Of a DNA stretch of 64,000 nucleotides, positions 11,029 to 53,801 are shown in pieces. Within the stretch, counting starts at the first letter, position 1. Each line of letters opens with the position of its first letter. Origin of the DNA: Gottschalkiaceae bacterium SANA (lineage in GTDB: Bacteria; Bacillota; Clostridia; Tissierellales; GPF-1); NCBI GenBank assembly GCA_036323355.1, contig AP028876.1:2480001-2544000 (forward strand), in the 5' to 3' direction. Below the pieces are notes generated by a model. It saw only the letters and a program-made list of their open reading frames with translations. It did no database searches and had not been told where the DNA came from. The position numbers and the translations under genes are program-made.

Positions 11029-11089
11029 AATGATAGTGAAGCCAATTATGAAAGGAATGATAGTGAAGCCAATTATGAAAGGAATGATA
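11029..11089 (+). repeat. Tandem 27-bp repeat before the integrase gene
   Basis: Two perfect copies of a 27-base unit (11029-11055 and 11056-11082, beginning AATGATAGTGAAGCC) are followed by seven bases of a third. Each unit ends in AAAGG just before an ATG, so each carries a possible start site. The unit is nine codons long and keeps frame. Confidence 0.9.
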
Positions 11090-50716: not shown

Positions 50717-51087
50717 CCCATCACCTCCTCAATTCGTTTTTCTTCTCCCTTTAAATATAGAAATCCCATTAAAGCTTCCAATCCGGTTGCCTTGCGGTAA
50801 TCGTTAATATCCGCTTTCCTTGGCACCATGCCCGATTTCGCATTGCGTCCCCGACGCATCACCGCAGCCTCCGCCTCTGTCAATCGATCTTCGATCAGAT
50901 GATAGAAAGAAGCTTGGGCTGATGCCTTGACAAAGTCGATAGAGGCTTTATGTAGAGCCCCCACCGGCAGCAAGCTTTGTTCCATTAGCCACCTGCGAAT
51001 ATGAATTTCAAACACTGCATCACCCATATAGGCTAGGCGAAGGCCAGATTCTTCTCTTGGATCCCGCATTACTCTTCTCGTTTCCAT
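50665..51087 (-). CDS. mrnC: Mini-ribonuclease III
   Basis: The 140-residue protein has LRLAYMGDAVFEIHIRRWL (RNase III signature) and ATGLEALMGFLYLKGEEKR without the double-stranded-RNA-binding domain. It matures 23S rRNA. The ATG at 51087 follows AGGGGG; a second ATG at 51069 is possible. It overlaps cysS and rlmB. Confidence 0.93.
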   Translation of the reverse strand: METRRVMRDPREESGLRLAYMGDAVFEIHIRRWLMEQSLLPVGALHKASIDFVKASAQASFYHLIEDRLTEAEAAVMRRGRNAKSGMVPRKADINDYRKATGLEALMGFLYLKGEEKRIEEVMGWIFESTQIGSEEETQS

Positions 51088-52466
51088 TTGACCCCCTGCG
51101 GCGTATCTTCCAAGACAATCCCCTGGGCTTTCAATTCATCTCGAATCTCATCAGCTCTGGCAAAATCGCGATTTTTTCTTGCTTCTTGACGCTCATCGAT
51201 CAAGGATTGGACATCCAATTCCAGGGTCTCTTTTTCTCTGTACATAAGTCCCAAGACGCCGCCCATTTCCATCAAGGCATCATAGACCGCTTTTACGCTA
51301 TCCAAACTGCTTGTCTCCGATAAGTTGCTATTGGCATATTTGACCGTTTCAAACATCACAGCAATGGCGTCTGCCGTATTCAAATCATCATCCATAGCAT
51401 CTACAAATCGAGCAACAAAAGTTGCCGCTTGTGACTTGTTTTCTTCCTCTTCGCTATCGGATGCAGGCAAGTCCAGTTTCATCAGATGCTGCATCTGATA
51501 TTTTCCATTGTAGAGACGATCCATGGCCGCCTTGCTTTGCTCAATAATCTTGCGGCTAAAGTTGATGGGGCTACGATAATGAGACGACAGCAAAAAGAAT
51601 CGAACAATCTCTAGGTCGTATTCCTCGGCAATGGTGCGAACCGTAAAGAAATTATCCTTTGACTTGCTCATCTTCTCGCCCTCGGTGTTGATCATGGCGT
51701 TGTGCATCCAGAAATTCGCAAATGGTTTTCCCGTTAGACTCTCAGACTGAGCAATCTCATTCTCATGATGAGGAAACTCTAGATCCGATCCCCCTGCATG
51801 AATATCAATGGTTTCTCCCAAGATGCTTCGAATCATGGCCGAGCACTCAATATGCCAACCCGGTCTACCCTCGCCCCACGGACTTGTCCACGCAGGCTCG
51901 CCTGGCTTCTTGTTTTTCCAAAGAATGAAATCCAAGGGATTTTTTTTCTCTTTGTTCACCAAGATTCTTGCCCCGCTGACTAGGTCTTCAATATTCTTCC
52001 GGCTAAACTTTCCATAATTTCTGACCTTTGTTACCTCAAAATAGACGTTTCCATTTACGGCATAGGCATATCCCTTTTCTTCTAGCTCAGCGATAAATGC
52101 GATGATCTCGTCCATGGTCTCCGTCGCTTTCGGATGAACAATAGACGCCTCATCAATATTCAATCCCTTAGAGTCCGTTAGATATTCCCGAATATATTTT
52201 TCAGCCAACGCCTTGACTGTCACCCCTTCTTCAATGGATTGGGTGATTAATTTATCATCAATGTCCGTAAAGTTTTGCACATACTTCACATCCATGCCTT
52301 GATACTGAAAATAACGCTTCAGGGTATCAAACACCACAAAGGGACGTGCGTTTCCTACGTGAATATAATTGTAAACCGTCGGCCCACAAACATAGATCTT
52401 GACGACACCCGGTTCAATGGGAACAAATTCCTCTTTCTTCCTTGTCATGGTACTATAAATTTTCAT
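51069..52466 (-). CDS. cysS: Cysteinyl-tRNA synthetase
   Basis: The 465-residue class I enzyme has [16 protein letters not shown] (zinc Cys and HIGH box), [20 protein letters not shown] (KMSKS) and [12 protein letters not shown]. The start at 52466 is six bases after AGGAGG. It overlaps cysE by 14 bases and is governed by the Cys T-box upstream. Confidence 0.97.
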
Positions 52467-53112
52467 CAAATTCCTCCTCATTCTTCACTCTTTGCTGATC
52501 AAGCTCGTCCTCCAAACTTCGAACGCGCTGTTTCAGATAATTGATCTCTTGTAAAACTGGATCCGGCATGCCGGCTTTTCCAACCCGCTCTTCATTCTGA
52601 ATCACAATCCTGCCGGGAATCCCAACAACGGTACAATGGGCAGGAACAGGCTTTAATACCACCGACTGAGCACCAACCCTAGAATAATCACCAATCATAA
52701 TATTCCCTAATATTTTTGCACCCGCACTGATAACCACATGATCGCCAATAGTGGGATGGCGCTTGCCTGTTTCTTTTCCAGTTCCCCCTAATGTAACACC
52801 GTGATAAATGGTCACATCATCTCCGATAATGGCCGTTTCACCAATGACAATACCCATACCATGATCGATAAAGAGCCTGCGGCCCAACTGTGCCCCGGGA
52901 TGAATCTCGATGCCCGTTTTTGAACGACCACGGTCCGACATCATGCGTGATAGGGTCGTCCATCCCCGCTGATAAAACCAATGGGCGCGACGATAGCGCC
53001 GGATCGCCTTGAGACCGGGATAGGTCAACAAAACTTCCACGGCAGATTTTGCCGCCGGGTCTTTTTTCATAATGGTTTGAATGTCTTCTTTCAATTGATT
53101 GAATCCCAACAT
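52453..53112 (-). CDS. cysE: Serine O-acetyltransferase
   Basis: The 219-residue enzyme makes O-acetylserine for cysteine synthesis. It has a helical N-domain, then a left-handed beta-helix ([40 protein letters not shown]) with the catalytic His residues, and a coiled C-terminal tail. The start at 53112 follows GGGAGG. The 412 bases before it are tandem repeats. Confidence 0.96.
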
Positions 53113-53122
53113 AGTTACCTCC

Positions 53123-53527
53123 CAATGAATTCTTCCATGCTTCGCATGTCTGACCATCTTCGCTCAACTTTTTTTTGCAGATTGAACCCTCTGCAAATGA
53201 TTACGAAGATCTATTCATCTTGTCCCAATGAATTCTTCCATGCTTCGCATGTCTGACCATCTTCGTTCAACTTTTTTTTGCAGATTGAACCCTCTGCAAA
53301 TGATTGCGAAGATCTATTCATCTTGTCCCAATGAATTCTTCCATGCTTCGCATGTCTGACCATCTTCGTTCAACTTTTTTTTGCAGATTGAACCCTCTGC
53401 AAATGATTGCGAAGATCTATTCATCTTGTCCCAATGAATTCTTCCATGCTTCGCATGTCTGACCATCTTCGTTCAACTTTTTTTTGCAGATTGAACCCTC
53501 TGCAAATGATTGCGAAGATCTATTCAT
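53123..53527. repeat. Four tandem copies of a 103-bp repeat before cysE
   Basis: Copies start at 53123, 53226, 53329 and 53432, exactly 103 bases apart; the last is cut at 96 bases. Copies 2, 3 and 4 are identical over their shared length; copy 1 differs at two positions. Each unit can form one large hairpin: ATCTTCG/CGAAGAT outside, TTTGCAGA/TCTGCAAA inside, and a small CATGC-TTC-GCATG hairpin beside it. They lie in the untranslated leader between the T-box terminator and cysE. Confidence 0.95.
53417..53527 (-). CDS. Putative 36-residue ORF in the cysE leader repeat (one of three)
   Basis: The frame starts ATGAATAG and reads MNRSSQSFAEGSICKKKLNE to a TAG inside the next copy. Identical ORFs are at 53314-53424 and 53211-53321. 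The copy nearest cysE is stopped after five codons. Each has two Cys codons (SIC and QTC). The binding sites are weak, and repeats of this kind may simply be non-coding. Confidence 0.2.
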   Translation of the reverse strand: MNRSSQSFAEGSICKKKLNEDGQTCEAWKNSLGQDE

Positions 53528-53532
53528 TATAA

Positions 53533-53766
53533 ATAAAAAAAAGCGGTGATCAAAGTCTCCAAAGAGACGATTTTCACCGCGGTTCCACTCTTGATTAAAG
53601 GACTTGCATCCTTTCTCTCACCGATCCATAACGAGATCATCCGAACAACCCTACTTATTTCAGGCGTCGACTCCCAAGCGCACTTCCCTGCTCAATTCGT
53701 AAGCTTCTCACCAACCAGCTTCTCTCTTGGTCCCTTTAGCAAGTACTCTTCTTGTTCCTAGTCTTT
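53533..53766 (-). promoter_or_regulatory. T-box riboswitch (Cys) of cysE-cysS
   Basis: The minus strand has the T-box GTGGAACCGCGG (53577-53588), stem I with GACT/AGTC and CAAG/CTTG, the AGAGA-like loop and a specifier loop in which TGC (complement of 53680-53682) lies at the Cys position followed by G. A terminator (GCGGTGA/TCACCGC with TTTTTTTT) ends it. Uncharged tRNA-Cys would promote readthrough into cysE-cysS. The specifier is my reading, supported by the downstream genes. Confidence 0.85.
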
Positions 53767-53771
53767 CTTCA

Positions 53772-53801
53772 TTCATACCACAATTTTCCCTAGTAAATCA
53801 A
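53772..53801 (-). promoter_or_regulatory. Promoter of the Cys T-box operon
   Basis: TTGATT (complement of 53796-53801), 18 bases and TATGAA (complement of 53772-53777) lie directly after the gltX stop codon. The match is moderate. Confidence 0.45.

Follow-up and report, generated by a model that had tools for sequence, protein, structure and literature searches.

The repeats BOX, RUP and SPRITE of Streptococcus pneumoniae are short, non-coding and dispersed sequences with a predicted RNA fold, and BOX elements differ in how many boxB units they hold in tandem; one of them separates two T-boxes in the trp leader (PMC3049150). The bcr repeats of the Bacillus cereus group are group-specific and intergenic; in the account cited, bcr1-3 are MITE-like, and bcr10 and bcr18 have a conserved secondary structure and are transcribed in 5′ UTRs (PMC3446304). 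Class C group II introns employ a stem-loop target and insert directly downstream of a terminator in a fixed orientation (PMC3522654, PMC10190682). Structured intergenic repeats are often taken as debris, and why they prefer certain sites is rarely accounted for.

Here we describe a structured element, four copies of which stand in the cysE leader. BOX elements are its nearest precedent, being likewise folded and partly tandem. In contrast to BOX, whole units are arranged in tandem here, the site behind terminators is constant and copies are conserved at orthologous sites, a distinction drawn from the description of BOX and not from its sequence. The comparison with bcr was likewise made by description and not by sequence, and the excerpts of that report considered here (PMC3446304) do not mention a position behind terminators. 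Neither this constant position nor conservation at orthologous sites is mentioned for BOX or bcr in the portions of the two papers at hand (PMC3049150, PMC3446304). Like class C introns, as far as the excerpts used here describe them, the element sits behind terminators in a fixed orientation; those introns, however, are ribozymes with a reverse transcriptase, whereas the element is only ~100 nt long and fits no intron model, and the source genome offers it no RVT_1 partner. The T-box (RF00230, Rfam) adjoins the element in the leaders of cysE, serS, argS, trpS and asnS, but the element is a separate module downstream of the terminator and is also found behind FMN and lysine riboswitches and behind plain intergenic terminators. 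We class it as a variant of the structured interspersed repeat, and not as a riboswitch or an intron. A search among open-licence papers returned no description of this element, which is weak evidence of its absence from print.

The array in the cysE leader

The window, i.e. the whole stretch of 64,000 nucleotides that was analysed, belongs to a genome assembled as one contig of 3.49 Mb (the source genome, G000). Tandem Repeats Finder placed an array at 53120-53527 with a period of 103, 4.0 copies, 99% matches and a score of 802, the second-ranked array of the window scoring 122. This bears out the four 103-bp tandem copies after the T-box that a preliminary description had reported, with the array comprising 408 bases instead of the 412 given there. 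The same program found a perfect 27-bp tandem repeat of 2.3 copies at 11029-11089.

The array, the T-box, the terminator and cysE-cysS all read on the minus strand. The T-box leader (53560-53768; RF00230, 119.6 bits) lies upstream of the array together with an intrinsic terminator at 53535-53580, which is formed by a hairpin (53543-53580) and a T8 run (53535-53542) and passes the hairpin plus T-run rule used below. The first element copy begins 6 bases past this T8 run. In the order of transcription, the copies, recognised by sequence and by a covariance model built from 5 copies (R1), occupy 53432-53528 (110.2 bits), 53329-53425, 53226-53322 and 53123-53219 (110.7 bits each). GGACAA linkers follow the first three (53426-53431, 53323-53328 and 53220-53225), and the fourth directly abuts the Shine-Dalgarno GGGAGG of cysE (53118-53123; sequence, by eye), which overlaps its last base. 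The gene for serine O-acetyltransferase, cysE, spans 52453-53112 (TIGR01172, 248.2 bits, above cut-off), and cysS, encoding cysteine--tRNA ligase, lies downstream of it at 51069-52481 (TIGR00435, 564.2 bits, above cut-off). The earlier placement of the array between a riboswitch terminator and the gene it controls agrees with the T-box at 53560-53768 and the cysE start at 53112, both on the minus strand. The sequence CATTGGGA, previously read as a cysE-type start context, does run into the Shine-Dalgarno GGGAGG, but is itself the 3′ strand of the closing stem P1 of the element (see below).

Copies 2 and 3 in transcription order have the same sequence. The first-transcribed copy differs from them by one base at the outer edge of the array and the last-transcribed copy (53123-53219) by two, so that copies 2 to 4 as formerly counted along the forward strand agree in all but one base, which lies at the outer edge of copy 4. 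Any two copies differ at no more than 3 of 97 bases, which indicates that the expansion is recent. The cysE array is thus a recent local tandem expansion of an element that also stands at cysE in a second carrier species.

Fold and distribution of the element

The element is about 97-132 nt long and, instead of the single large hairpin assumed earlier for each unit, forms a branched fold. This is a three-way junction made of a closing stem P1 (GAUGAAU/AUUCAUU), a short J1/2, a long and variable arm P2, a GG in J2/3 and an arm P3 placed directly on P1. One unit folds at -25.7 kcal/mol (z -2.8), and the whole array is much more stable than its shuffles (z -6.8). We analysed the fold on an alignment of 38 rows (A4) derived from 43 matches; one antisense match of a palindromic copy, two matches from loci L062 and L065 and two above E 1e-4 were dropped. 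Across P1, P2, the inner P2 hairpin and P3, 87.5% of cells pair, and the P1 ends GATGAAT/ATTCATT (7 bp) pair in 93.5% of cells. Changes on both sides were found in 19 of 37 pairs, and the cells with double-sided changes number 88, compared with 31.7 ± 4.1 in shuffles (reached in 0 of 500), and slid partners give no more than 23; the counted structure was named from single folds, and hence chosen partly on the same sequences, while RNAalifold on A4 gave 7 pairs only, because this alignment holds long insertions. G-U exceeds A-C by 58 to 15, and by 35 to 14 when two GU-rich pairs are left out (p 0.004), which points to a constraint on the sense strand. Of the 37 distinct rows, 33-34 retain A8 and the GG of J2/3.

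Some copies (127-132 nt) carry a second P2 hairpin, as seen by eye. Shorter forms that lack P2 keep P3 and the 3′ strand of P1; such extra copies or remnants were seen by eye in L053 (after 3093), L055, L062, L087, L088, L089 and L220. A pseudoknot between the P2 loop and GTTGAAC was rejected: it is perfect in three of the four window copies, but 484 of 500 shuffles pair at least as well across the family. The unit was also considered as an open reading frame and discarded, as other copies have stops or a lost start codon (by eye); element copies lack a coding region, and reading frames are broken between copies (by eye).

Searching the source genome at the DNA level revealed diverged relatives of the unit ahead of a cysteine-synthase-like gene and of ilvN-ilvC. 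At E≤0.1, R1 gave 18 matches in G000, 24 in the congener G002 and none in a second congener, G001; the remaining 57 of the 60 relatives yielded a single weak match (G035, E 0.04). At E≤1, R1 gave 20 matches in G000. G000 and G002 are referred to as carriers in the following. A model rebuilt from 38 copies (R2) yielded 21, 24 and 1 matches at E≤1 in G000, G002 and G001, respectively, the last at E 0.62, and a model of the P3 half alone yielded 22, 25 and 0 at E≤0.1. With stricter Infernal filters and E≤0.001, the two carriers were the only genomes matched by R2 among 249 of the order, and the source genome was the sole match among 398 genomes sampled from the phylum and 391 from the class. So far, judging from these searches, the family has been found in two uncultured species of one genus only. 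Rfam 15 gave no family over the unit in 53050-53800 at E≤5 and none on the L054 copies; on L061 it gave three partial matches far below gathering scores. Searches of viral contigs with two exact patterns of the element, and of plasmids and phages by blastn with one unit, returned no match; these empty results argue against a phage or plasmid origin, which we had considered.

Position behind terminators and ahead of genes

We counted 24 distinct loci in the two carriers: cysE, cysK, serS, argS, trpS, asnS, trpE, ilvN, an ABC substrate-binding gene, lysA, ribD, glmS, a phosphate acetyl/butyryltransferase gene (ptb), rlmD, prmA, dnaE, a nucleoside hydrolase, a class II aldolase, a MATE-like gene, a Na/H exchanger, an ECF transporter, murB, a glycine-riboswitch locus and a convergent spacer (L043). 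Gene names come from profile matches, with MATE assigned by eye, cysteine synthase lying below NCBIfam cut-offs and ilvN resting on a short ACT-domain match and the adjoining ilvC. The downstream genes of the 24 loci are metabolically mixed and share no common pathway. A terminator stands directly in front of the element at 23 loci, the exception being the glycine-riboswitch locus (L218/L219), and a same-strand gene follows at 23, the exception being L043. The element is always in the orientation of the terminator. Under a fixed rule (hairpin and T-run at most 25 nt upstream), 26 of 29 carrier sites passed compared with 101 of 3600 random positions, the element start having been set by hand at three sites (cysK and rlmD in G000, the hydrolase in G002) and wrongly so at rlmD. 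At 20 of the 26 passing sites the terminator lies 4-8 nt from the element. The three sites missed by the rule are the two cysK sites, with a T5 run, and rlmD in G000, with its misplaced start; all three show a terminator by eye.

An Rfam attenuator precedes the element at seven loci, namely a T-box at cysE, serS, argS, trpS and asnS, an FMN riboswitch at ribD and a lysine riboswitch at lysA, as obtained from a scan of 20 of the 26 flanking loci, with L064 added later. Three further loci (trpE, ilvN and the ABC gene) have a T-box motif or leader peptide that was recognised by eye only. Between element and gene lie a ribozyme at glmS and a riboswitch at the glycine locus, and a promoter-like stretch separates the element from murB (by eye). 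The start codon lies 10-62 nt from the element, with a median of 18.5 (26 sites).

Some of these leaders show features of their own. Upstream of ilvN-ilvC, open reading frames for Leu/Val/Ile-rich leader peptides are followed by terminators (L049:2751-2960, L096 and L097), and L096 of G002 has two leader-peptide attenuators in succession (by eye). Upstream of the ABC substrate-binding gene, a short Trp-containing frame (MK.TMMNWRWQMN...) precedes a terminator in L085 and L100 (by eye), which is likely a Trp leader-peptide attenuator. A truncated element copy lies ahead of the glycine riboswitch (L218:2808-2922, minus strand; L219:2666-2717) and has no terminator in front; in G002 the copy at this locus overlaps the 3′ end of a GGDEF-type gene, whose reading frame is shorter than in G000. 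In L058 of G002, where two element copies precede it, the MATE-like gene reads as two overlapping frames, owing to a frameshift or an assembly error.

Insertion history and conservation at fixed sites

The orthologous regions of G001 were empty in 21 of 21 cases, as judged by eye and in agreement with the model searches, and 23 filled sites could be aligned with empty ones. In G001 the T-run of the terminator is followed after a few bases by the ribosome-binding site or the old spacer. The empty regions show the element to be a discrete insertion, and direct flank repeats resembling a target duplication were seen at cysK and ptb only (by eye). Empty and remnant calls between the carriers were also made by eye. 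For sites filled only in G002, five of nine G000 regions were empty (ECF, hydrolase, MATE, exchanger and ribD) and four held decayed remnants (aldolase, dnaE, glmS and prmA); no G000 ortholog was found for trpE. For sites filled only in G000, all five G002 regions were empty (argS, serS, the ABC gene and two ilv loci). At least 11 sites are common to both carriers, seven intact in both and four as remnants in G000, in addition to the truncated copy at the glycine-riboswitch locus. The suggestion that a dispersed repeat family had landed at cysE and then expanded is thus supported by copies at many loci of the source genome and one congener and by the empty orthologous sites of the second; the unit recurs elsewhere in its own genome and in a relative, rather than being absent from all other loci.

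For 22 copies at shared loci, the best match was at the same locus in the other genome in 18 cases, compared with a mean of 1.2 and a maximum of 7 in 2000 shuffles, which indicates old insertions and not repeated hits. Eight orthologous copy pairs of G000 and G002 agree at 761 of 896 bases (85%; 76-92% per pair) and the four-fold degenerate sites of seven adjacent genes at 472 of 972 (49%), where the surviving pairs are a favoured sample and four-fold sites only a proxy for neutrality. In seven pairs compared in both directions, 56 of 537 base-pair cells are broken, while randomly placed substitutions would break 96.9 ± 5.3 (0 of 500 as low), using structures predicted from single sequences. 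Given the 85% versus 49% identity and the deficit of broken pairs relative to chance, selection probably maintains the fold where copies are fixed. These conserved orthologous sites, like the constant place behind terminators and the three-way junction, were missing from the preliminary description.

The history of the family depends on the relationship of the three species. In a concatenation of 18 open reading frames (6372 compared sites), G000 and G002 as sisters were disfavoured by the AU test (0.04) and by bootstrap (0.016) and not rejected by KH (0.069) and SH (0.12), with the other two trees undecided; the program warned of too few replicates for this test, and one frame (p41) may be the asnS frame on the other strand. 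A smaller set left the tree unresolved. If G000 and G002 are not sisters, the family would have been present in the ancestor of all three and cleanly lost from G001, an outcome that the disappearance of a trans-acting partner would lead one to expect. Alternatively, it may have been gained on a short shared branch.

Origin and role of the element

Our preferred reading, which we regard as reasonably probable, is that of a structured repeat of mobile type, associated with terminators and retained as a 5′ leader module that acts in cis, with the cysE array as its recent tandem expansion. The family would have spread by a transposition-like process that recognises terminators; with less certainty, surviving copies may have been kept since their RNA acts in cis in the leader made after terminator read-through. 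Such a role after read-through appears most likely because copies at fixed sites keep their sense-strand pairing in leaders. It would most likely consist in fixing the processing or stability of the read-through mRNA or in binding a trans-acting factor, and not in hiding the ribosome-binding site. Sequestration of the Shine-Dalgarno was rejected: over 26 sites the predicted start-site accessibility is unchanged, at 0.54 with and 0.51 without the element (higher in 12 of 26, p 0.45), which makes processing, stability or factor binding likelier. Counting against a cis role, G001 manages the same genes without the element. A leader module also has to accommodate the missing shared pathway, L218/L219 without a terminator, L043 without a same-strand gene and the promoter-like stretch at murB, and the four G000 remnants, which show that copies decay, count against retention.

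A bolder extension would see in the element a terminator-homing, non-coding, SINE-like RNA of ~100 nt that serves as a portable 5′ leader module, with the same fold behind many attenuators, selection through a trans-acting partner, loss of the whole set from one species when the partner went, and the cysE array as an increase in dosage. We put this forward tentatively, as a conjecture that may well prove wrong.

The same sites could be occupied by a purely selfish, MITE-like repeat whose fold is kept for mobility, with terminators as a harmless harbour and nothing gained by the host. Many homologous copies, empty orthologous sites, the decayed aldolase, dnaE, glmS and prmA remnants in G000, the absence from one congener and complementary 7-base ends all suit this reading; the 7-bp P1 ends are indeed terminal inverted repeats as in MITEs, if short for one. 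Mobility alone, however, would not protect stationary copies, and the 85% identity of fixed orthologous copies against 49% at four-fold sites, with fewer broken pairs than chance, therefore counts against it; we consider it possible but doubtful. Compatible with the preferred reading, and bearing on origin only, is a SINE-like mobilisation of the RNA in trans by class C group II intron machinery. It would explain the landing site, since class C introns, in the part of the report considered here, insert downstream of Rho-independent terminators (PMC3522654), group II introns are present in G001 and G002, and two of four flanks viewed (L101 in G002, L102 in G001) start behind a terminator-like hairpin. 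Yet in L103 and L104 the 5′ flank lacks such a hairpin by eye, no intron family matched at E≤5 on three sampled stretches, and RVT_1 matches number 0 in G000, 1 in G002 and 6 in the element-free G001, which makes this origin unlikely. The search for an enzyme common to both carriers yielded no reverse transcriptase (RVT_1 0/6/1 in G000/G001/G002) and no Y1 transposase, Y1_Tnp giving one match below cut-off in G000 only. The protein concerned has 245 residues (L108:1060-1797, minus strand), lies just under the Pfam cut-off and has no counterpart in the two congeners.

Conserved junction bases, compensatory changes, the 5′ leader position and tandem copies, which could steepen a response, would also fit a ligand-binding riboswitch class. 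Such a class is hard to reconcile with genes as mixed as aminoacyl-tRNA ligases, dnaE, prmA, rlmD, a Na/H exchanger and glmS, most of which already have an attenuator or terminator of their own, or with unchanged accessibility and no expression platform downstream, and we regard it as very improbable. Least credible of all is that the array arose through faulty assembly or simply extends the T-box: repeats so alike are difficult to assemble and the four copies are known from the assembly, but the independent assembly of G002 carries two copies at this position (L051), the same leader in G001 contains none (L076), and the RF00230 match covers 53560-53768 only and ends before the array.

Taken together, our data suggest a working leader module rather than debris, and, given the fold kept at fixed sites, the element likely has some cis effect on the transcript. 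It adds a module between the terminator and the ribosome-binding site of T-box and riboswitch leaders, a stretch usually taken as spacer. Since its target is sharp and its fold defined, its sister sites are empty and its conservation at fixed sites can be measured, the family makes it directly testable whether mobile repeats become regulatory RNA leaders.
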